Assembly: GCF_964355755.1 (NCBI RefSeq)
Contig: NC_092675.1
Location: forward strand, 23,352,412 to 23,416,411
From: Antedon mediterranea
Lineage: Eukaryota; Echinodermata; Crinoidea; Comatulida; Antedonidae
DNA: 64,000 nucleotides
Direction: 5' to 3'
Shown here: positions 1-61,681 of the stretch, piece by piece
How positions within the stretch are numbered: position 1 is the first letter of the stretch
Layout of the letters: every line of letters begins with the position of its first letter
Position numbers and translations under genes: made by a program
The notes under the pieces: model-generated
Told to the model about the DNA's origin: nothing
The model's input: only the letters and a program-made list of their open reading frames with translations
The model's database searches: none

Positions 1-320
1 TTTTAAAAAAAGTTGTACATCGGATATGTAAGTTTGTATCAGGGTGTTATATATAAGAGAGGCGAAGATGATTAAAAGCGAAAACTGTTTATTGATCACA
101 ACTCGTGTTTTATTGTATTGAAAATGTTTTAGACGAAAGGTAAAAAATATTTAAAATCAATTAAAAATTATGAAATTTTATATCTGTAAAACTGTGTTCA
201 GAACTGCATACAATAGAAGGCATGTTAAAGGAGAAATTCTATGGACCCAACAAAGTGTCTGTAAAAGACGAGTGTCCCTTGAATAGTGGTTGATCGTGTT
301 ATACAGGTATTCCTTTCATA

Positions 321-520
321 CAAAATGTCTCCAGAATAGGGGTGTGCTTTGACTAGGTGCTGGTAGTAGGCCTAGTGTTAATATATTACCCCTTATTCGT
401 TTACACGGAGACCGTCCCCTCAAAATGTCTCCAGAATAGGGGTGTGCTTTGACTAGGTGCTGGTAGTAGGCCTAGTGTTAATATATTACCCCTTATTCGT
501 TTACACAGGAGAGCGTCCCT
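321..520. repeat. Two-copy tandem repeat, 100-bp unit
   Basis: A 100-bp unit starting CAAAATGTCTCCAGAATAGG occurs at 321 and again at 421, nearly identical through the TAGGCCTAG core and the TTTACAC end. A degraded third start (GCAATATGTTCCTAGAAT) follows near 521. The first 1.2 kb otherwise shows no coding signal. Confidence 0.9.
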
Positions 521-1276
521 GCAATATGTTCCTAGAATATCAGTGATGTCTCAAAGGAGGGGGGCCCTACTGTTATCGCCTTTTGGTTTCAAGAAAGAAA
601 GTAGGACAGTAACAATGCTATAGTTATAACACATTTTCGTAGGCATCTTGCTGTTCAAACACACTTTGTATGAAGAAAACACATAAAGATAAACACAAAC
701 AGAATAGTTATTTAAATGTATACAAATATTTGGTCTATCAATCGAATAAGGAAATCATCGAAACGTAGCTGATATACACAAAATATGCCTTTATTTTTGT
801 TGTTAGTGTTTCCACGGTAACAATTCGGAGTTGATGATCCGTATAGAACGTGATTTTATTTTGCCAGAATTCGTATATAATAAGCCTGCAAATGCCTGTA
901 TATTTGAGAATGAGTTATATTTAGTGGTTTCTAAGAAGGACAAAGGAACTAGACGCCATTCTATCTCGATGACTTGTACAAGGTAAAATCTCTCTGTTAG
1001 CTTATGAAAGAGTAGGCCTATAATCAGTCTGTATTAGATAGAAATGTCCATAATAGTTGTAATATTATGTAAAATAGCACAACTGAGACTTGGGCCCTAC
1101 ATTCATCAAAACAAAGAATTAAAAACTTATAAATGGATCTGTAAAGAATTGTGTCTTTCCTTGCCTAAACTGTGGCAACTAAATAGTAGATAAATTTATA
1201 TGCAGCTATTAGGCCTAAATACGTTTATGTTATGTTTTTATTTGATTTATTTAAGGAAAAGTAAATCCGCTTTGCA

Positions 1277-2516
1277 ATGAATACAACGACACCATTGGAT
1301 TTTAATAACATTCCATTGATAGCAACTCAGAAACCATCAGAAAATAGTAACTTAGACATATTAGGTAAGTATATCCATTGAACGATTACTTACTTACTTT
1401 ATCTTCTAGGAAATGATGAGAAAGTCTAGTAATAATTTTTATCTTTTACATTATAAATATAAAAATACATTATTATGATTGCCTTAAAAATCTCTCACTA
1501 TTAGTATTACTATACCTTTGACAAGTATTACTTATGATAACGAATACGTATAAATTATAACAAAGCTAGATCTTATTAATAAGTATAATATTAAAGTTAA
1601 ATATTATAATTTGATACATTGAATATAGTATAACATAATACATACATATTAATACTGTAATACAAGATGTATTATAAAATCGTTTTGTAAGAGAAATAAT
1701 TTTATTTTCAGAGAGTCGTTTGATTGCAGACAGTATACATCCGGTACTTTTGCAATAAAATGTTTAATACAAATTAATGTGTTAAAACAGTTAAAAGAGT
1801 TATTAGATTAAAGATCAATTAATGTAAATATTACGGTAAAATGCATGCTTTAATTTCTATCCAGCGTACGTGACTATATCCTTTGCATTGGTGTTTTTGT
1901 TGTTCTTTTTGTGGATAAACTTAAAACATGTAAGGTAGGTAGATTTATTTTACATAAACAAAAGTTACAATTATAAAATGCTAGTAAGTATAAGATTTAC
2001 AAAATAAACATTGAATATATCCTGAGTATAAATATAATTAGCACCCCACGGGTTTATTTTGATTCTGTACCACATAAAAATCGTTTCTTCATTTCCTTCT
2101 TTTTTTTTGCGTTAACTTTACAAATTAATCATTATCTTCCAACCAGAAATAACAATCGGTTCCAGGGTTCTACACCAGTAATGGTACCACAAATCATCCA
2201 GATTTCTAGTATTAGCAGTAGGCCTAATTCATTAAGATCCATAGACCTAGATCGTACAATAAGCAGCATTCCTAGGAGCCAGCACTCTTTTGTTGCAGAG
2301 GACATGTATTCTAAGGTTCAGGAAACAACAAGAGAGAACATGAAAAATGATACAATTGAAAGAAACTCAAAGAAAAATAAACATAGGCCTAATCATGATA
2401 TATACGCTGATATCGATACAGTTATTGTTGAACCTTCATCAAGTAATACAGGAAAAACTGACCAAGCAGCCGTACCTATCTATGCCAAAGTAAATAAACA
2501 TCCGAAAAAAGTGTAA
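1277..2516 (+). CDS. Gene A: small single-pass membrane protein with YxxV/I cytoplasmic motifs
   Basis: Three exons, 1277-1364, 1865-1934 and 2147-2516, join in phase (1, then 2) through GTAAGT and GTAGGT donors and CAG acceptors to give 175 aa. The first 29 residues are polar and show no signal peptide. Exon 2 encodes one hydrophobic helix (about residues 31-48, core FALVFLLFFLW) followed by basic KHVR, which suggests N-outside/C-inside topology. The tail of about 120 aa is Ser/Asn/Lys-rich and carries three tyrosine motifs: MYSKV (Y107), IYADI (Y139) and IYAKV (Y165). Such YxxV/I motifs are known docking sites for SH2 domains or sorting adaptors, so signalling is inferred. The family is not recognised. 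An in-frame stop just upstream supports this ATG, and a non-coding 5' exon is possible. Gene B lies tail-to-tail with it. Confidence 0.7.
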
Positions 2517-3007
2517 TTCGTACTGATTTTCTCAGTTACATCTGACATTATCTTACGGTAAGCACCTGTAGTTTCTTTTCTTCTGATTACAAGCTATGTC
2601 TACTCTTACATTGCCTTTTTGTCAACCATTTGCGCAATCGTGAAGACAAGCTTGGTTCGAATCCTTTCGACGTGTGATTTTTACCTATTTACATTTACGA
2701 CTTGGTTTCGGAAACATTTAATTTTAATTATTATATTAATTAATATTATATTATCATTTATTTTAAAGAATTGTGCAAGTATATGTGTTAGCTAAGTTAT
2801 GCGGTTTACTTTTTCCAATATCACTATAGGTTTCTTTTAAGCAGGATGAATGAATTACTTATTTTTTATATACTGTTACTGTGGAAAATATGGATTTTTA
2901 ATTATTATCCATACATTTCATTTAAATACAGTAGGAATAATAAGAACATGCCAAACATTAAAAGCTATAGAAATTATGTCTGAATCAAATGTTTAATTAC
3001 TACAACT

Positions 3008-5661
3008 CTACATTATTGATGTTGCTGATTCATAAACGATATTTTCCTCCCAAATCGTATTTTTTAGATCACTGTAGTCATAAGTTGGATTGTTATCATT
3101 ATTTAAGCTTATATTATTTTTGGGGTCTTTTGTATGAAATGTGTTATCGTACTCTCTGCTGTTAATATATGTTGGTTCCAAATCCACATAAGACGGCTCT
3201 ACTTCATGGTAAATATCACCAGGTTCAGTCCCATTAGCTTTCGCCGATTCTTTATCATACTGTTTTGTAGTAGGCCTTCGAAAAAAAAAGGAAATATAAT
3301 AGTAAATTATGTAGGGTGTATAATTATATAATAATATGCAGTAATGTTATATTTAATTTTTATTTAAATTTTTCGATAGATATACAATTTAAGTACACAA
3401 TTTAAATTCTAATAATAATAATAATAATAATGTAATGTTTATCGTATTTTTGATGTTCTTATTTGTTGCTTTTAAAATGTTGTATCCCTGTAGTATTCAT
3501 GTCTGTTTTTAATATATTGATTGTTTTAAATAATATAAATATTGTATAATATTTTTCTTAAATTTTCTTAGTATACATTTTAAAATTTTGAAAATGTACT
3601 AATATTATTTCCATTTTAATTGGTAAAATAAAATTGAATCTTGAATCTTCTGTTTCAAGGTTTGTTACTAAACAGTACTACATTCAATGATTGTATTTCA
3701 TCACACTTAAATCCACAGTCACTACTGTATGAAGTTTATTTATGTTTATTTATTTACAAACATATTTAACTGGATAACATTTTCATTTACAAAATTATAT
3801 TTTTACAAATGGTACACGGAGAGAATAAATTATTCAGAAAGCCTATTAGGCCTAAGTCTTCCAATCAATCAACTCATGTTTAACAGTAAGTAATTCAACA
3901 TACCATTTGAACAAAATAATTCCCCCAATAACAAGTAAAACGACCACACGCAGACAACACCAACGGACAAGTACCACCGCCAGTTACCGTTTGATTGGTT
4001 TAAATATTATCTAGAAACATTAACAGGAATACGTTAGCTTAGGCCTAAATATATGTAATATAAACAAGTTTTGGAAACATCAAAATTGGAACAATAACTG
4101 GTTAAGATACCTGTTATTATACCGGCCAGATGACGTTTAAAGCCTCTTATCCACTTTTTAAAATAAATAAATTTCATCCAATAAGTGTTGGTGAAATCTG
4201 TCCATCAAATGGGCTAATAATATCCATTATTTGGGTTTGTTCTCTCCAAAATAAAGGCCGCTGAGGGCGCTGGTGTCCACGATATGGGCTTTCCATTTAT
4301 AAAGCATGAACTCCTGAGCCACAGCATGGTTTGAATTTTTTTCACATCATAAAATGGAAATACAAATATACATGCGCATAAACCAATATGAATACATTTT
4401 ATCGAGTGGAAAACAACAAAGTTCGAAATGAAAATAATGATAAAAATGTTCTTAATGCGTACACATACCTTTGAATTAGAAACAAATTACTAGGTTACTT
4501 AGGCCTACCTTGTTTTTTTAAAACAGTAGACATTGTTTCCGTTGACTGCATGTGATTATTATACCTACAAAAATCATTTAGTTATAATTATATTTGTGTA
4601 TATCAGCATGTAGAAATATGCTATACCATTGAACCGTGGTATACAACGCATTACGATAATATAAAGAACATTAGTATAAGTATGTTGCTAAGTTAGTTTT
4701 TGTGATTATCCTGTGTGTATTACACATGTTACCCATATGAATTGTCGTCTAGTCCTACTTACGTTGAATTAGAAGACCGAAATGAGTTCTGAGTTGAAAG
4801 CAAATCTTCATCTGTTGTAACTTTTGGATATGGACGATCTGAATTCGATTTTATTAGTAGAGTTGTAGAAGTAGTCTTATAAAACGTGGTTCCTTGTGTT
4901 GTTACGTCTGAAATTCAAGAACTAAAACATAGCAGAAAAAAACAACATGCCAAAAGGTGACTCTATTTATTGTATCTATGGCATAGTTAGGCCTACATTA
5001 TTAGGTAGACCTAACCTAACCTTCTTTTGTTTTTATATTTAGAATAACACCACAAAGAAAATAAGATTGTAATCATGTTTAATTATGTTTCAACAACAAA
5101 ACTCACAGGAATTTCCAAAAAAACTTCGGTATATCTTACATATATATTTGCCTATATATTTTTAGACCATCACTTGACTGCCTCACTATAAGCAGTAGCT
5201 ATTGCTCAAACCAGAGTTTGGGTAATGTGTTGACCAGTTGTCGTCCCAACGTTGGCATTTCTTATTACTTTTTGTTCTACTCAAGAAACCTCTGTAGTCT
5301 GAAGCATCGCTTCTTGTGTAACATTCTGGAAGTTATGTAGAATGAATATGATATGCATAGATGCCATTGTAAAAATCATTCAATTTAACATAAACATAAC
5401 AAAGAATCAATAGTTCACCTGCAGGTACGTTATATAAATTGTTAATACTGACTTTCGATCAACTTAATGAGTAACAACAATATCATTGGTTATAGATGAT
5501 GAAGAAGAATTAGGCTTGCTTCTTTCCTTTATCTCTAGACCTATATCGCTTTTTTAAATACCACTGTATTCTTACTTACCGTTTGCTTCAAGTCCACACA
5601 TTAAACAGTAGAACATAAGTATACTGGGTATTACACCGATACATTTAGGCCTAAACAACAT
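3008..5661 (-). CDS. Gene B: secreted-start, Thr/Ser-rich receptor-like protein with tyrosine-dense tail (membrane exon unresolved)
   Basis: Exon 1 (5661-5580) encodes a signal peptide (MLFRPKCIGVIPSILMFYCL, then MCGLEAN) and ends at GTAAGT in phase 1. Exon 2 (4907-4763) and exon 3 (4564-4509) join in phase and encode a Thr/Ser-rich ectodomain. The last exon (3275-3008) encodes an 88-aa tail with IYHEV, SYVDL, TYINS, EYDNT, YDYSDL and VYESA motifs and ends in TAG. A membrane segment (core LRVVVLLVIGGIILFKW) sits at about 3904-3975 with a good GTATGT donor in the phase the tail needs. No AG acceptor precedes it in an open frame, so the model is incomplete. Either the acceptor is non-canonical, the sequence has an error, or the gene is broken. 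YINS and YDNT resemble Grb2-type YxN sites and YVDL/YSDL are YxxL sites; function is inferred only. Confidence 0.55.
3634..3648 (+). repeat. TTGAATC short tandem repeat after AATAAA
   Basis: AATAAA at about 3627 is followed by two copies of TTGAATC. Short heptamer 3' ends of this kind are typical of some truncated non-LTR retrotransposons. It could equally be a poly(A) signal for gene A. No reverse transcriptase is visible nearby. Confidence 0.35.
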
Positions 5662-6816
5662 TGTAGCCCGTTTTCTTATAATAGACCCAATACAATGCAA
5701 TTATGTGGAGTAGTGTCGACAGTGTTTTAGGTACGGTAGGTTACTTTACTTAATCACAGGAAACTTGACACACCTTTATAGGATTTAAAAGTGCACTCAG
5801 ATCAGCTGTGTTCAACTCGCAATGAATCTATAGGTCTGTGTATTAATATTTGTATGTAGTTTTACATTGTTTGTTTGTTTTGTTCTTCAGAATACGCCAT
5901 CTTTGCGTTCAACTGTTGAATTCGTCATATAAAGACATGATGCAGAATTGACGCCCGTACACAAAAACCTCACGGAACCATTAGTCGATAGAAAGAAAAA
6001 AACCTTGTGTTTTATCATTAGTTGCTTGTATCCGGTTTTTCCCAATACCCTGTATATACTCCATCCAACATAGATTTATATCAATGCGACAAAATTGAAA
6101 TACGTATATTTAATTACATTTTGTAGTAGCCAATAATATTACAAAACCATTAAAAACAAAGGCCTAGATATACAAAATAATACTGTATTAGTTGACTTTG
6201 TTACGCCTTATGTAACCGTCAATTATTTCTAACGTATACCGTGTGCTAAAAATAGAATAGAGCATGTAGGCTACAACCACCGGATTTTAAAGACAAGTCG
6301 GTTTGAGAACTAGGAAGGTATACTAAAAAAAAGATTATGTATAGAGGGTTGATTTACTTTGGTCATTTTGTAGGCCTACTATTATTTGTAACGATTTTTC
6401 CTCCTGTAGACTAATTAAGTGATAATTATTTGAATGTGAATTGTGATAAGCTATTAGTATTCTGGCAAGGATAATTAAATACAACAGACAGTTTGTAATG
6501 ATAAAACGAAGTGTCGGCGGTTAGTACTGCAATTGTTTTGTAGGTGTAGGTATTTGGTTTTTCAGTCCCACAGCATCAATGAAAACCAACAAGACTGACA
6601 ACGACCAATTTTCCAATCGTATAACCGTAAGTTTCTCAAATGAATTTAGGCAAAAATGAGTCAGATATTAATGCATAATCAAATTCTTTTCTACATTAAC
6701 TACATTGAAATCTGTTCTTACTGTCTATTGAAACGAACAAAGCCCATTTTATATAGCCGTTTCTGTGACTGTAGAATTTATTTTAAACCCGTTGTGGACG
6801 ACTACAGTATTCTTAT

Positions 6817-9360
6817 CTATACAATAGGATCATTGTCTGTCGTAACGTTCAGCTCGTCGTCAATATGGGTTTCTGCAATATCCGCGTTAGTTATGTCTTC
6901 CGCTATTACATCACGTTTATCATTATGTTTTCCGTTCTTAACATTGTTACTTTCGGTTAACATAATTTCATCTGTTTTTGTTTCCTCTTTATTGTATAAA
7001 CTTTCAGATGTGTCTGTAGTTTCATTTATTACAAGAGGAGCTCGTTTACGGTTGCCAGACGGACTAGTACGTCCAAATGTTTCACCGTCATGCTTGTATC
7101 GTTTGTCCATTAAACTTGACCGTTTGCCAATTTTACCTGCTAATGGACCTACATATTGATTATCTTCTTCATCATTTGCTCCATCATACAACCAGTCTTG
7201 TCGACTGTCGTTAAATACCCATCGTGCACCACTAATGTCACCCTTTTCATCATCGTATTCAGGTTCAGTAGAAGCCTTTGAGTACTCATTCTTCCGGCAT
7301 CTAGATGCATGTAAATAAAATAGTAATTATTTGTATTAAATCATCTGATTGGTGATGGTGGACCTCTAAATCCATATGAAGAAAAATATAGTAGATCTGT
7401 CAAAATCCTATGTCAGTACATAATACAAATAATACATAGTTTGCTATCATCTTACAGATCCTATAAACTAACAGTATTAATGTTAAAATGCTTTTAACTC
7501 ATCAAAAAGAAAGGATAATACGATTTTGAAATTCTGTGAAACAATTAGAAAGAGGAAAACCAAATACTCACCGCTTGCAAATAAATATGGTTAGAATGAT
7601 GAAAAAGATTAGTGCTAGAGCACCAGTACACGCTGCTCCAACTAAGATGTATATACTTTTATCAGACACTGGGAAGAAACAATGAAATATAAAAATACAA
7701 CAAGTTGGACTGTAAATCTATTTTGATGGACAGTTGCTGATCATTGTGATGAGACGATGATGTGGATATGAAGAATGTCTAATGGTATGATAAAGAAATA
7801 ATGTCAGGCCTATACTCGACTCACCAGAAATAGAAGACGTAGTCAATGGCAATACCACCGCCTGTGACGTAGACATTATTATAGCCTTAGACGTAAGAAT
7901 TGTTGACTGAACATCTGATTGGCTTGTCTCTAAAAACTGTGTGCTTTCCATTGCGAATGTTGTTCGACTAGTTTCAGTCGAAAACACCGATACTTTTTTA
8001 GTTCTATTAATAGAATCATACGGTGTTGTTTCAGTAGAATGTATTACTGTCACGTGTTCCATTGATGCACTTGTTGGGATGGTGTCAGTATTCATCATTT
8101 CATTTTCTTGAGCCAATAAACCTAAAATTAGATTAAATATAATTATACCAAAGTATAGGTCTCGTTATTTTTATAGGCCTCGTTATTTTTATAGGCCTAC
8201 TATTTCTTTCGTTTGCTTTTTGCTTATTATATACAGTAGTGCCGTTGGGAAAATTTTGTGTGACGAACACATTAAAATAACAATTGTCTAACGCCTATGT
8301 TAGTGACATGCACATTGTTTTAGCTCCTCATACTTAGAGCAATTATTACTTTCTGTCGAAAGGTTTACATAAGACGTTAGCAAACACATTGAAGATAACC
8401 CGATGTCAAATGATAAGCGACCATGGTGGTGTTAACTTATTATTGTATTTTGAAGTACTGTTGTGCTACAATAACATTTTAACCAATAGGCCTACTGTAT
8501 ATTAAAATGTAGGCCCCATGTGCCTAATGTCATGGAATGAATGTACCTTTCTCTGTTCCTTTTGACGGGACAACTTGTCCAGTAGACCCCATGACGCGTC
8601 GTCATCAAATAGGTCTATTGTTCATTTATTCCAAATGTAATCGATAGTATCGATATTTCTTTTTAGGCCTATATTACCATTATAATTTAGCCTATAATAT
8701 TAAGGAAATAGCACATATTACACGCTATATGTAACGTTGGGATTGCGCAGAATCATAGCAACAAGTGTGACGATATCTTAATCATTGACTATAGTAAATG
8801 TTAGGTCTATGTGTTTGGTGTTTCGATAATAGGCTAGATAGTCAAGCCTTGTCAAAAAGTATAAAACCGAGACATGCAGTCATATCATAATTTTACGCCA
8901 AGATATATCACAGCATCAAAGTCGTACTTCCATCTTGAAATCGAGTTCAGATACAGTGTTTTACTTTAATTTCAAACTACCCATGACCACGCCCACATTC
9001 TGAGTGTTGCATCTGTAGGTATCATAATATCTATACGAATGATGGCCCTAATGATATAAGAAGGTGAAAGGCATATTTCAATAGGAATAATAGACCTACA
9101 TTTTACATAGGCCTAAATTAACTAATATTGCTGTTGCAATAAAAACTTGATTAACCAGCCTTGGGACTCGACCCATTTACTCACATAAGCAAGAGACAAT
9201 AATCTCTTTACCCAAGTTGGAGTACCCGCGAGCCCGATAGTTGTTTCTCACGATGCCGCATATCGGGTAGATTTAAAATTAAGTGCAAAGTCCACTTACC
9301 ATTAAAGCATAGTAATATCCATGCTTTTAACAAATATTCCACTGGTCTTGATTGCAACAT
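6817..9360 (-). CDS. Gene C: mucin-like single-pass membrane protein, 312 aa
   Basis: Four exons, 9360-9300, 8121-7825, 7668-7572 and 7300-6817, join in phase (1, 1, 2) with good GTAAGT, GTGAGT and GTGAGT donors. Exon 1 plus the start of exon 2 gives a signal peptide (hydrophobic WILLCFNGLLA, cleavage probably before QENEMM). Residues about 25-118 are Thr/Ser-rich with few cysteines, which suggests an O-glycosylated stalk. Residues about 125-147 form one membrane helix (YILVGAACTGALALIFFIIL) followed by CKR. The tail of about 160 aa is acidic and basic, with EYDDE, QYVGP and SLYNKEE tyrosine contexts. AATAAA lies about 35 bases past the stop. The family is not recognised. The membrane exon has the same 1-to-2 phase as in gene A, and the tail is likewise a single exon. 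Confidence 0.75.
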
Positions 9361-10743
9361 ATTGGAAAATTATAATGGCAACTCAGGAAACACTTCGGTG
9401 AAATAACTCCGGCACGTGATCTTGAATTCGACGGTTCGATTCTTTAGTACAATGCAAATTTCAGGCTGAATTTTTCAGCTTTATTCCATTCAGGTAAAAT
9501 ACTTAACAAACAAAACGTTTGAAAATTCGTTGAGCCCTGTACAATGCTTGTTCATTCAATGCGTTGACCAGGGATCACACTGATCTTCTCTGGTATGACA
9601 ATGAACAAAAGCGCGATGTAAAAATCCTTACCACGAAAACCATGAAAGGCCCATTGTTGTACTAAGTGACATAGGAAGCAGCAATCTTATCTAGATAGGC
9701 CTATATAAGTTTTACAATAATACGAAGTAAAATAATAAATATAGCTAGCATATATAGGCGCTTTACCTACCGATGGTGATTAGTTTGATTCGAAAACCCT
9801 CTGGTAAAATTCCTATCGCAAAGAAAAGTTTATTTGTCAGCGGGTGGTTCATAAACCAATTTTGTATAGTCAGTGGGTAGGCATATCCAGGTAGGTAAAT
9901 ACACATGATCTTATTTCACCATGGGTAGAGCCAGACTTCTTTCTATACTTGTTTATACTATTGCCTGGCGAAAGTGGTGAATAAGTCGGAATACATCGAC
10001 ATAGACCAAAAAAAAAAAAGGAAAAGAAAAACAACCAGGCCTATTAAGCCTATGCATAGAAAACTGTAATACAATTTGTGTTGATCATCGATTTATTATT
10101 GACAATTAAAAAGAAAATGTATGTATTCGAAGGCTGGTAGGCCTACTGCTAAGCAACCCATCTATTATGATAGATTTTGGACAAGAGATAATTATTGGCA
10201 ATACGAGTTACATCATTTCTGTTTGTGTATTTCTTTTTATTTTGGAAGACATTTTACAGTATAATTACATTTTGCTACAAAATAATGAATTTGTGATATA
10301 ATAGTCAATAGAAATTGACTATTGTGATATTAATTGCATAAAATCAATATAGCGCCCTCATTCATTATTGATTTTACTCGACGCGTACCTGGGAGAAAAA
10401 TAGAAGCGTCCGATTTGCCAGAAATAAACTAAATAATATTATATTTATTTAACAGATTAAAATGCATGTAATTATTATATTTTGTACATTGTTTTACAGG
10501 TTCAGAAAATATGATATTCTTAATGTGGTAATCGTTTATTTTATTTTATAATGTTATTTTAGAAATTTTAAAATAAGGTAACTCTGGAAACTGTCTAGGA
10601 CTAGACGAATTTGCAAAACACAAAAGTACGTAGAGAGAGAAGCCTTGCATCGACTCGACACCCACCTAGGCCTACGTCAGTTTAGCCTCTAGTAGATAGA
10701 TTAACCACGATTAGTAGGCCTAGCCTAGATTTAAGACTAAAAG
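9361..10743. other. Intergenic region between gene C and ACSS2
   Basis: No gene was found. Scattered TAGGCCTA/AGGCCT words increase toward 10669-10730, just before the ACSS2 start. A poly-A run sits at about 10007-10020. The two flanking genes diverge, so promoters for both may lie here; no TATA box was identified with confidence. Confidence 0.5.
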
Positions 10744-13700
10744 ATGTCTGAAGATATATATGCGCCGGCGACTGAAGTACAAAATATAGCGCATGTAAAG
10801 TCGATGGAACAGTATGAAGAAATGTACAAAGAATCGGTGAATGACCCTGAAATTTTTTGGACTAAAATCTCAAAAGACTTTTACTTTCAGAAGCAGCCGA
10901 CAGGAAAGTTTCTTAATTACAATTTTGATGTTTCAGATGGAAATAAAGTGTTTGTTGAATGGATGAAAGGAGCCGTTACCAATGTATGTTATAATGTTCT
11001 TGATCGTCATGTTGAAAATGGCAAAAAAGACAACGTGTGTTTTTATTGGTGAGTCAATATAATTAGGCCTATAAAAAGGCTACTATGCTATGGGCCTACC
11101 TAGGCCTATATTAATAATATATAGGCCTAGGCTATACTAATATAGACTAGGCCTACCTAGGCCTAGCAGTAGTAATGGTCACAGTGCATATCGGCCGCCA
11201 GTCGGGTGTCACGAAACCTAAGACCACAAAAGCTAAGACCCCCTAAGACCTAAGATCACGAAAGCTAAGACCCAAGACCTAAGATTACAAATATTTATCT
11301 TTCGCACCTGCCTTGTATTTTAACTCCCAACATTTATTCTGAATACCACACCTTAGAATTGGCACTTTCATGAAAAAGAATCACATAAAAAGTAACAAAT
11401 ACATTTTTAAATTGATGATTTTACAGACGTTTTTCTCGCACACAAAATGACTAGCCTACAGACAGTATAGTACACTAGTAGGCCTACCCCATGTTCAATG
11501 TTTTTGTTTCTATGGAACGTCAAAAGAGCAAAAATTATGTAGAGGGCTGAAAACTCTGTGGAGTCCATCTACATAAACAATGTAAAATTAAAATTGTAAT
11601 GATAATAGTATAATCATGCAAGTACGAAGAAATAAATACTGGCAAATAAATTTTAACTTAAAAATCAATCAAGTTTTTTTGTTTCGTTTTCTTTCTGTTT
11701 TTATACTTGTACTATTATTGTTGCTCTTTTGGCGCTCCATAGAAACAAAAACATTGAGCGGGGAGCTCGAGGAGTTACATTACAGTATACAAAGAAACAC
11801 GCCTGTAAAATCATCAATTTAAAGGATTTATTTATTTGTTATTATGTGTTTCTCCTTCTGAAAGTACTTATAAGTCCTAATTTTAAAGTGTGGTATTCAG
11901 GATAAAGTTAGTCAACAAATTTGGAGTCAAAATACAAGAAAGGCAGGTGCGTAAGAAAAACATCCTCTGAACCAACACATTGGAGTAAATATATACCAAC
12001 AAACAACCCGTCAAGTTTGTTTGTTGTAAAGAAAAAATATACATTTACTCAACGGGCGAAAATAATGTGAGTTTTATCTATGTTTTTCGGTAGTATTAAA
12101 TTATATTTATGGTAATAAATGAAACCTACTGTGTTTAAAATTATGTATGGATAAACAAGTATTGTTTTTAAGCTGTAGTATATCTTAGAATTTGTAATCT
12201 TAGGTCTTGGGTCTTAGCTTTCGTGATCTTAGGTCTTAGGGGGTCTTAGCTTTCGTGGTCTTAGGTTTCGTGACACCCGCCGCCAGTCATTTCGGCCGCC
12301 GGTTATAAAACACCCAAAATCATGAAACGCCAAAAAGGACAACAAATTGTCAAAAAGGGTGTATACATGTACTGTATGTGCCTATCGCCTGAATAGACCT
12401 GCGTATTCAAACAGCAAGCAATCATATCAACAAAAACGATATACTTCTTTTTGATGTGCATGGTGTTGCACTATCAATATTTTATTTTTACTATCTTTTA
12501 CCGGTTTCTTCCTGAGCCCTACAAAGAAAATGTTATCTTGAAATAATTTTGAAAGGTTTTTACTTTTTTGCCTTTGCAGGGAAGGTAATGATCCAGATGA
12601 TAGCAAGGTAATCACGTATGGAGAGCTATACAAACAAGTATGCAAGTTTGCCAACGTCTTGAAAGATCTCGGTAAGTTTAAAAATAATAATCTGTATATT
12701 GAAATAATTTATATTGAAATAATTTATTATTCGCTGTGGCTAAAGATACGGTACCATATCCTAACTTCCGTTTGCTAAAGGTACGGTAAAATTGCATTAC
12801 GTCATAATCAGCCAATGGGGTGCTGGTACGTGTGTGACGTCATCGTATAAGGACTTGGGATTTTTTTTTTCATATCGCGAAATAAAAACAGTGATCAACC
12901 GGTGGCTTAACATTTTCTTTATGCTTCATTTAACGCTATTATAAAATATCCCCGTCGTGTGACAAAAACTAACTGTAGCCTAGGCCTACCTCTGCTATTA
13001 TTGATAGGCCAACCCATGTTAATTTTAATTCTAGAATACAGAAGTTTACCATTTCAAAAGAGGCGCCTACTACGTACTATAACCATGCTATAACCTATAG
13101 CCTCGGTATATGAGTTTGTTTGTGACTAATTAAGACCTGGGCTAGGCCTATTGTCTAAATCATAGTATTTGAGGGCCCCTTTATTGTCCGCATTTGCTTT
13201 TTGTTTATGGTCACCATCTGTAAACGAAGTTTATTAAAAAATATAGGCCTAAATAGGCCATTTGGAATAAAAATAAAACCCTCATAGTAACTATGGACGA
13301 ATGAAATCGACGCAACCAAAGAATATATATTCTTTGACTCACAATTTCCAACATTGAATTATAATTCCTTTACTTCTAATTTGGCTATCAACATATTTCT
13401 ACTGTAGTGTAGTGTATAATGTTGTAATTAATGAAATAATATTTGAGATTGAGTGCATGTTTAAAACGCTTATGTAACGTCCACCAACCCATGATCTTGC
13501 TCTATTACTACAGCATCGACGATTCTGGATTCAACATTGCTAGGTCTAGCCCCGAGGCTGAGTCACAGAATCATCAGCCCACACATCCGGTCCATGCAGC
13601 CTGGCTTCGTCGATAGGCGCTGCATTCGCGATGTGAAAAAACAATCCAAAGTCCTTATACGATGACGTCACACGCGTACCAGCACCCCATTGGCTGATTA

Positions 13701-42569: not shown

Positions 42570-44454
42570 ATCTGTTTGTTACAAATATGATGTTAAAGAT
42601 GTATTGTCCCTCTAAACATGTAAATAGGCCTTTTTGTTTTACTTATACAAGGCAAAATAATTGTAAGATTGACCCAAAAACATGTCTGACAGATTTACTA
42701 AATATATGTTTGGTAATGTGAATAAATATGTGACATTAAAAATAAATAAATAGGCCTAAATGGCATGTCACATGTCATATATACAAAAACTGTTTTCTTT
42801 TCTGTCTTTTTCAGGACAATATAATATCTCTAGGCTATTATAGGCCTAGCTAGGCTAAAAAGGACATTATAATATAGGCCTAGGCCCCCTCCTAGGTAGC
42901 AACAAAATATTGTCATCATCAAAAAGAAAAGGAATCAACTAGGCTAGTTAGGCTAGGCTAGGCCTACCCTAAACTAAATAAAAGGTCTAGGCCTATACTA
43001 TAGGCTGCTGTATCTCTACTCGCCAACAGAGGCCCTACTACTCTCTCTAAGTGTATACTCCTACTACTACTCCTAGGCTAGTAGTAGTACTAGATAGTAG
43101 CATAGGCCTAGACTAAAGACTAGCCTAAGTAGGGCCATCATATTCAGTCAATTTTAGTAAATTTGGTAGCTAGCCTAGCTAGAACATGTAGATTAGGCTT
43201 AGGCCTGGGACTAACCCTACACATTACAGGGAAAATCTAGCTAGGCCTAGATCCTAAAACTAGAAAGCTTACTACATTAGGCCTTATTTTATCTTTATAC
43301 TTCTCAAAATTCCGATATTTTTTCCCTTCACTCGACGTCTCAGTTTTAATTTATTTACATGTTGCCATAGTCCAATTACCTTCAGCCAATCAGAGTCAAT
43401 CAAAATTCTGATCCTTTTTATGAAACGTCAGAAATGCCTTAATCGGCGTACTCTGTACACAAATTAGAAAAACCATTAGCTCCTGACGGAGGCATGCAAA
43501 CTAAAACCTTCAAATAATATATTACTCCTGACGGTACATATACAAACAATTATAACTATACTATTAAATTTTGTACAAATATACCGACCTAGAGCCGATT
43601 CAATGTTGTAATTGTAGATTCAATTGTTTGTATCATTATTTATATTGGGCTGACCAAGGCCCGGTCATATGCCGTAGGGCTCTAACAGTAACACCCTGTT
43701 TGTTACTGTCTTTCACCCCGACAGTTGACTTTTTTTTTTTTTATATCTATTCGTTTGTGTTTCATTTGAAAAAAAACAACAATATATAATAATAGGAAAA
43801 AATCACACACACAATCACACACGCACAAAGCACTTTTTTTTTCACTTTTCTTTGTTTTTTTTTGTTCAGGGGGACAATATGAAGTAAGATAAGACAATGT
43901 ACAGTACTCAGATGGTACAGTACTTGAATTGTTAATTGTAGAATCTGTTTTTTGTGTGTGTGTTCCGCTGCGTTGGTCCTGTTTTTGTTTTGTTATTAAA
44001 TTATAAAATATGAAAACAAAATAATTAAAAATATAGAAGAAATTGTACTGAAGAAATGTAGAAAGTTCAACATTTATAATAAATACAAAAATTTGCTATA
44101 TACATGGAGTTGTAAAAAGGATTTTGTGTATTGATATTGAAATTATTTGCTCATTCGATCGAATGTAAGCCTATTAGTATTTTATACGAAAAGTGCCTTC
44201 CATATACGTTTTCTTGATTTCTTAAAACCCTTGAGGGCAGCAAATAAATATTGACAATTTACTTTTTTCCGACCTCCAAAAGGTCGTCGATTCTATCGTC
44301 GCTGCCCGTATTTTAGGTGAATTTCAAACCAAATTTTATAAATAAGGAACAATTATGGACGTTTTTTGTCATAATACATGAAATCCATATTTAATTTAAA
44401 AGAAATATCCTTGGATTTTGTTTGAAATTGGTAAGGTATTTTAATTAATAAATC
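42570..44454. promoter_or_regulatory. Divergent promoter region between the TRP channel and MIB1
   Basis: The two genes start 1.9 kb apart, head to head. The half near the TRP start (42620-43280) is packed with TAGGCCTA/AGGCCT and CTAGGC words, and the MIB1 side (44757-44890, first intron) has a similar cluster. No TATA box could be chosen. Low-complexity poly-T/poly-A and CA tracts lie at 43728-43865. No other gene was found. Confidence 0.45.
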
Positions 44455-56257
<11,803 letters not shown>

Positions 56258-59830: not shown

Positions 59831-61049
59831 TGTCATGTTATTTATCTATCAACGATATATTGGAATGATAAAAATAAACATATTCATAATGATAAGCTGC
59901 AACATACTCAACATGATCAATGACATTATTTATTAGAATCAATACGGTTAATAATAAGTAGCAAAGTTAACATGAACCATAGAATATTCACCATGACCTA
60001 ATACAATACCTACAGATTAATTGGTTTGAGGCAATTAATAGCATTCTATGCCTAAACCTAAAAACTAGGGACTTTTTGATTTGATTGAATGAAGTTCTCA
60101 TCCACATGGGTAGTAGTTGACTGGTACTCATCCACGAATAAATTAACATTTTGATTATTAGTGGACATTGACGTGCCAGTGAACATATGACGTAATGACC
60201 ATGTACTGTAATATCTAGTAGTACTCTTGTGCTGGGCCAGTGGAAGTACACAGGTTTATCTATGTTATCTATAAGCCTAGATACTTAATTTTCAGTGTTA
60301 TGACGACATACTGTACGTTCACTCGTACTCAGAGAGAGAGATCGGAAAAAGGCCAAGTTCTCAAATTTTGCACTTAACGTGCCTGTCGACTTGCGCATGC
60401 ACATGTCATAAAAACAATCAATTGGGCATCAGTCGACATAGTGGACGCGCAAATCGAAAACTCCCTATATTATCAACAACATACTGATAGTCTACATTAA
60501 CAGCATAGCCAGCATGATCAACAAAATAGTCATCAACTCAATAGACAGCATGATCAACAATCAGGATGATCAACAACAACACAGTCACCAGCAAAGTCTC
60601 TTCTCATCATGCTATTTACCGTTGAATTAAGAAAATTAAAGTTATTGGCTAATCGTTTGACATATACTGTTTCTGCAAATACAATTTGATGCGATTGAAT
60701 CCATCTGTGCGAAGCTGCTAACTGGTTTATGTTGATATGAAATGGAGTGCTACGGCTGGTTGAAGGGGACCAAATCCATGTAAAGATACGATGTGATTCC
60801 CATTTACCAGCTAAAGCCCAACATTTATTATCGTTCTTGCATCTTCCATAGTTCAGATTTTTCCTTTTGTCCTGTGTCCTTTCTTTGTGTACCATACATT
60901 TTTACTGTCTTCGTACTTACTGTTTCTAATATATATTTGTATTGTCTTGTTTCTTGTGTCTCGTATGCTGTTGTTTGTTTCTTGTGTCATGCGTTGTTAT
61001 TGTTTTATTGCTTTTTTATTCTTCACATATATTGTACTGTCTTGTTTTG

Positions 61050-61155
61050 CATGTGTCCATCTTTGTTACTTGTGTCCATCTTTGTTACTTGTGTCCATCT
61101 TTGTTACTTGTGTCCATACATTTCTATCTTCGTTACTTGTGTCCATACATAGTTA
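61050..61155. repeat. 20-bp tandem repeat
   Basis: TGTGTCCATCTTTGTTACTT repeats about four times, then varies to GTGTCCATACATTTCTATCT. A looser CTTGTGTC-rich stretch precedes it from 60860. Confidence 0.85.
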
Positions 61156-61681
61156 TTATTTTGTTTCTCCATAAATTCTTTTTCCATCATTATTGTTGTT
61201 GTCTTTTGCCTGTACTTCATATAAACCAAAAATATAAAAAATATTATTAATATTATAACTATATCAAATAAATCGGTGCTTGCAATTAGTCCTCAAGCTC
61301 CATTTACAAAGTATATTTGTTGATCATGAATTTCTTGTTTCCGTCACATTAAATTGAATTTGAATATAATATTCATTAAATATTAACAGTATTCTCATAA
61401 AACTATTAATTAATATTAGAAAAAAAACTGTGTTTGTTAAGCTTCATGGAAATCTCTTTATTAATTTAGGTAATTATTTTATTAGATGAAATGTTAAAAA
61501 TTAAACTCCCACATATCATATAAAAAATGTTGTAATATCCATTGTAAAAACAATGACCTTTCTTTTGAGCTAAGAAAGATTATTTTCAAGACAAACATTG
61601 ATTTGACAATTTGTTTCAGTTGAGGTTTAAGTGAAATTTGATTCAGCATTGGCAATTCATGCAAGACATTCATATCATTAT

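Follow-up and report, generated by a model that had tools for sequence, protein, structure and literature searches.

Gene models at the left end of the window

The window, the whole 64,000-nucleotide stretch analysed here (C6:23352412-23416411), belongs to a chromosome-scale genome of 354,431,138 bases in 18 contigs. Three gene models, A, B and C, lie near its left end (Table 1), and on the best reading A and C are predicted to encode lineage-restricted single-pass proteins. Coordinates are window positions; the left flank of 50 kb was also examined, and negative numbers denote positions to the left of the window.

Table 1. Gene models A, B and C and their exons, in window coordinates
Feature	Position	Strand	Description
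Gene A, predicted	1277-2516	+	3 exons, canonical GT-AG joins, one open frame, 175 codons
Gene A exon 1	1277..1364	+	ATG and 29-residue N-terminus, GT donor, phase 1 out
Gene A transmembrane exon	1865..1934	+	phase 1 in, phase 2 out; also recovered by the mechanical scan
Gene A tail exon	2147..2516	+	3 tyrosines (YSKV, YADI, YAKV), then stop
Gene B signal-peptide exon	5580..5661	-	phase 1 out
Gene B Thr/Ser-rich exon	4763..4907	-	joins in frame with 5661-5580 and 4564-4509
Gene B small exon	4509..4564	-	phase 1 out
Gene B membrane-like stretch	about 3890..3988	-	not spliceable: in-frame TAA, no acceptor
Gene B tail exon	3008..3275	-	needs phase 2 in; Tyr-rich, 8 tyrosines
Gene C, predicted	9360-6817	-	4 exons, canonical splice sites, one open frame, 312 codons
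Gene C signal-peptide exon	9300..9360	-	phase 1 out
Gene C Thr/Ser-rich ectodomain exon	7825..8121	-	ectodomain of ~100 residues
Gene C transmembrane exon	7572..7668	-	phase 1 in, phase 2 out; gene model and mechanical scan
Gene C tail exon	6817..7300	-	~160 residues, acidic, no YxxV/I/L site

Gene A begins at an ATG directly preceded by an in-frame stop, and a search of the nearby sequence for a signal-peptide exon gave weak candidates only, none of them convincing. Its 29 N-terminal residues are slightly acidic and its membrane segment is followed by the basic KHVRNNNR; because positive residues thus flank the tail side of the segment, the tail would be cytoplasmic by the positive-inside rule. 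Every tail tyrosine sits in a YxxV/I/L site (shuffle P 0.006), and all three also fit the narrower pattern Y[AS]x[VI], which appears in none of 20,000 shuffles but was chosen post hoc, from the tail itself. Codon bias in the frame of the tail (-0.05) is not coding-like, being inseparable from that of non-coding frames, so the support for gene A comes from its exon structure. The sequence has no Cys beside the membrane segment and no CxxC palmitoylation motif, and it finds no PDB match at E 1 or better. Genome-wide, the motif YAKVNK occurs at 14 sites, compared with 9 for its reversed control, which is no real excess.

The tail of gene C has a coding-like codon bias (0.275 in frame) and carries six tyrosines, none of them in a YxxV/I/L site. 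The N-terminal half has no paralogue in the genome below E 2, and the protein has no significant PDB match. Disorder is expected in the tails and stalks. An ACAS_N domain (the acetyl-CoA synthetase N-terminus) at 10741-11052, which starts 1.4 kb from gene C, is an ordinary neighbour, as is an exon at 44452-44769 with the MIB_HERC2 domain of a mind-bomb-type ubiquitin ligase.

Gene B does not assemble. Its membrane-like stretch ends in a fitting donor; an in-frame TAA stands directly before the hydrophobic part, no AG follows the TAA, and all acceptors further upstream read into a stop, TTTCTAG doing so whichever of the three frames is used. The sole candidate for an alternative membrane exon, a phase-0-in stretch at 4468, fits neither adjacent exon. 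Given the lack of a usable acceptor and the in-frame stop, gene B is either unproven or broken: canonical splicing of the given sequence yields no membrane protein, and the cause may be decay or an allele, or else an error of the assembly or a splice site of unusual type. The tail itself has positive codon bias in frame (0.10), and YxxV/I/L sites account for three of its eight tyrosines (shuffle P 0.07).

The membrane exons were also sought by a mechanical scan for hydrophobic exons that covered 114 kb. It returned four with phase 1 in and phase 2 out (1-to-2 below), namely those of genes A and C, that of a neighbouring gene, D, and a stretch at 60.9 kb. Repetitive low-complexity hydrophobic open frames, rich in Cys, Leu, Phe and Val, occupy 60815-61250 and look like a membrane exon to the phase scan.

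A preliminary description of this DNA had proposed a cluster of three single-pass membrane proteins with signalling-type tails. Two of the three, A and C, do assemble by canonical splicing, whereas B fails at the membrane exon; and the signalling label does not fit C. Other observations made there hold up: the 1-to-2 phases of the membrane exons of A and C, found in both gene models and by the scan, the signal peptides and Thr/Ser-rich ectodomain exons of B and C, and the presence of several YxxV/I/L tyrosines in A and B.

Gene D and the SRCR/WSC receptors of this genome

Beyond the left edge, where the same description had suggested a count of similar neighbours, an SRCR-WSC receptor gene, D, adjoins the window and has the same membrane and tail exon plan as A and C. 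Gene D occupies C6:23345099-23351852 (-7312 to -560) on the + strand and comprises eight exons, all with canonical sites, which encode 737 residues in the order signal peptide, SRCR, WSC, a Ser/Thr-rich stalk of ~300 residues, a 1-to-2 membrane exon and a single tail exon. All ectodomain exons are phase 1-1, and both domains pass the Pfam cut-offs (SRCR at 49 bits, WSC at 43 bits). Between genes D and A, at 300-520, a direct repeat of ~110 bases (CTCCAGAATAGGGGTGTGCTTTGACTAGG...) is present in two near-identical copies. Further to the left, at about -45047 to -44115, lies a protein kinase domain encoded by one exon (PK_Tyr_Ser-Thr, 146 bits).

The SRCR domain of gene D belongs to a family that is expanded in this genome. 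At E < 1e-20 the genome holds at least 150 SRCR-domain exons, out of 408 first-look candidates, and WSC domains are found in 34 places. In the sea urchin, SRCR genes have expanded massively, with WSC and CUB as partner domains, and stand mostly in tandem clusters; starfish, amphioxus and a brachiopod show smaller SRCR expansions (PMC10855680). The expansion seen here is echinoderm-like, and the genome is probably that of an echinoderm; mitochondrial COX1, whose code might have indicated the lineage, is absent from the assembly.

The exon plan of gene D recurs elsewhere in the genome. In the SRCR/WSC genes on C6 at 23.12 Mb (with CUB) and at 24.10 Mb (L039 and L040), a 1-to-2 membrane exon precedes a single long open frame for the tail, in which tyrosines are numerous, and three WSC loci on C11 have a candidate 1-to-2 exon near a tail-like frame; the latter are scan hits rather than full models, and one of the three has competing 1-to-0 donors. 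At C11:12.997-13.005 Mb (L024 and L061), an extended WSC domain and sushi exons precede, on the same strand, a 1-to-0 membrane exon and tyrosine-kinase exons, which suggests a candidate WSC-sushi receptor tyrosine kinase. The 1-to-2 plan thus appears to be usual among those members of the SRCR/WSC receptor class in this genome that have no kinase.

The tail of gene D is single copy and resembles that of a WSC gene at C11:20.88 Mb (LYSRVDFSKKKNRRM versus LYAKVDMSKKTKMRM; shuffle P 0.005, one of five pairs tested), a likeness that agrees with the related WSC domains of the two genes (44% identity). The C11 gene (L060) is of the WSC-sushi kind, with a tail frame from about 3642, and LY[AS][KR]VDxSKK is common to its tail and that of gene D. 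A stricter motif built from the two tails has one site, and its control four; it is unable to match gene D itself because gene D uses an AGT serine codon.

Relatedness and readings of the cluster

Proteins A, B and C match no Pfam family above cut-off, and each of the four tails (A, B, C and D) occurs only once in its own genome, with no paralogue below E 3; the earlier remark that the three belong to no recognised family thus stands. Local HMM searches of 1-10700 in all frames, introns included, found no SRCR, WSC or CUB exon in the loci of A, B and C, whereas they recover those of gene D at E 1e-18 or better. Lacking these domains, A, B and C are not members of the SRCR superfamily. The immune-type character proposed for the cluster agrees with its setting, in that the genes adjoin a receptor of an immune-type class.

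The further proposal that the three arose by local duplication finds no backing in the sequence. Pairwise comparisons were judged against shuffles, with 15 pairs tested: the tails cannot be aligned with one another and score at chance level, and the best pair, A-C, reaches a shuffle P of 0.01-0.035 before correction for the 15 pairs and is not significant after it. The genes lie on both strands (A on one, B and C on the other). A 1-to-2 membrane exon with one tail exon after it is seen in A, C, D, L039 and L040 and not in B; since further SRCR/WSC genes of the genome have this phase too, it can hardly mark A, B and C out as one family. Shared ancestry of the three genes is, on these sequence comparisons, not supported.

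What A and C do share is the exon plan of the local known receptor class, minus its ectodomains, and comparison with the SRCR/WSC genes of this genome makes the 1-to-2 phase a suggestive link to that class. With moderate confidence, we read A and C as separate, fast-evolving, single-copy genes for single-pass proteins on the SRCR/WSC-type 3' exon plan, and B as incomplete or decayed. The 3' ends of A and C would then consist of a 1-to-2 membrane exon and one tail exon of the SRCR/WSC kind without the folded ectodomains, and B would be an incomplete or decayed gene on the same plan.

Gene A might instead be no separate gene. Lying 1.8 kb downstream of gene D on the same strand, with no signal peptide of its own, it could supply membrane and tail exons as an alternative 3' end of D, a second Tyr-rich tail on the same SRCR-WSC ectodomain. 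The stalk exons of gene D are phase 1 out and the gene A membrane exon is phase 1 in, so that an in-frame splice is possible, and the gene A sites DMYSKV and PIYAKV look like the motif of the D and L060 tails, the related site in gene D being DLYSRVD. Yet gene A starts with an ATG exon of its own, which ends in a good donor and is preceded by the in-frame stop, and its tail aligns with those of gene D and the C11:20.88 Mb gene no better than shuffles do (P 0.27); we consider such an arrangement unlikely.

Local duplication in another form, in which A, B and C go back to copies of a D-type receptor's 3' half, since diverged or in decay, with later loss of the SRCR and WSC exons, would account for the common membrane and tail exon plan, the clustering within 17 kb and the apparently broken state of B. 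Similarity that is not above chance in either the tails or the membrane exons, together with the mixed strands, leaves this with little probability as well.

Some of the cluster could also be non-genic, made of chance open frames in AT-rich DNA, with A or B the likeliest candidates. The codon bias of A, which is not coding-like, and the failure of B to join fit such an origin, but 1-10700 contains four stop-to-stop frames that reach 123 aa or more, where an order-1 null predicts 0.155, and the exons of gene A fit together perfectly at canonical sites on both sides of its membrane exon, which makes such an origin improbable. Least probable is a module of receptor (D), adaptor (A) and mucin-like partner (C), in which A and C derive from or share the 3' cassette of the receptor class and which would be an invertebrate analogue of vertebrate adaptors of the LAT/PAG type, or else one in which D acquires the A cassette by splicing, as another signalling tail.

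Adaptors, sialomucins and scavenger receptors

If A and C are separate genes, as we favour, gene A could encode a transmembrane adaptor: a Src-type kinase would phosphorylate the tail, and SH2 proteins would then dock. This reading draws on the 29-residue ectodomain, the absence of a signal peptide, the positive charge on the tail side and the Y[AS]x[VI] form of all three tyrosines, of which those in YSKV and YAKV could presumably suit a Csk-type SH2 domain. Gene C, whose tail has no YxxV/I/L docking sites, could encode a small O-glycosylated, mucin-like surface protein.

Transmembrane adaptors (LAT, LIME, PAG and others) combine a short extracellular domain, one membrane segment and a long tail with tyrosine sites, and LAX, SIT and TRIM lack a palmitoylation motif (PMC2803307). 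Gene A is similar to the vertebrate adaptors (LAT, PAG, LIME, NTAL, LAX, SIT, TRIM) in its very short ectodomain, missing signal peptide, single membrane segment and long tail with several YxxPhi tyrosines, but differs from them in having no Pfam match to a named adaptor family. The juxtamembrane CxxC palmitoylation motif of LAT, LIME, NTAL and PAG is absent from gene A, as it is from LAX, SIT and TRIM. By analogy, gene A may work like a transmembrane adaptor, which falls short of identifying it as one.

For gene C the nearest likeness is to the CD34/CD164 type, small sialomucin-type single-pass proteins. Gene C shares with them a signal peptide, an ectodomain of ~100 residues rich in Thr and Ser and one membrane segment; there is no sequence match, and the likeness is one of composition only. 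A small mucin-type surface protein would be the simplest reading.

Orphan single-pass genes beside expanded innate-type receptors are common and usually unnamed, and A, B and C are in this respect nothing out of the ordinary. What is useful is the neighbouring gene D and its exon plan, which provide a concrete link, through alternative tails or adaptor function. Gene D belongs to the SRCR-superfamily receptors with WSC or CUB domains; A, B and C differ from these receptors in having no SRCR, WSC or CUB domain, while A and C share the membrane exon phases and the single tail exon of gene D. If gene A turned out to serve SRCR receptors as a phosphotyrosine adaptor, this would be relevant to the way in which the kinase-less scavenger receptors of invertebrates signal.
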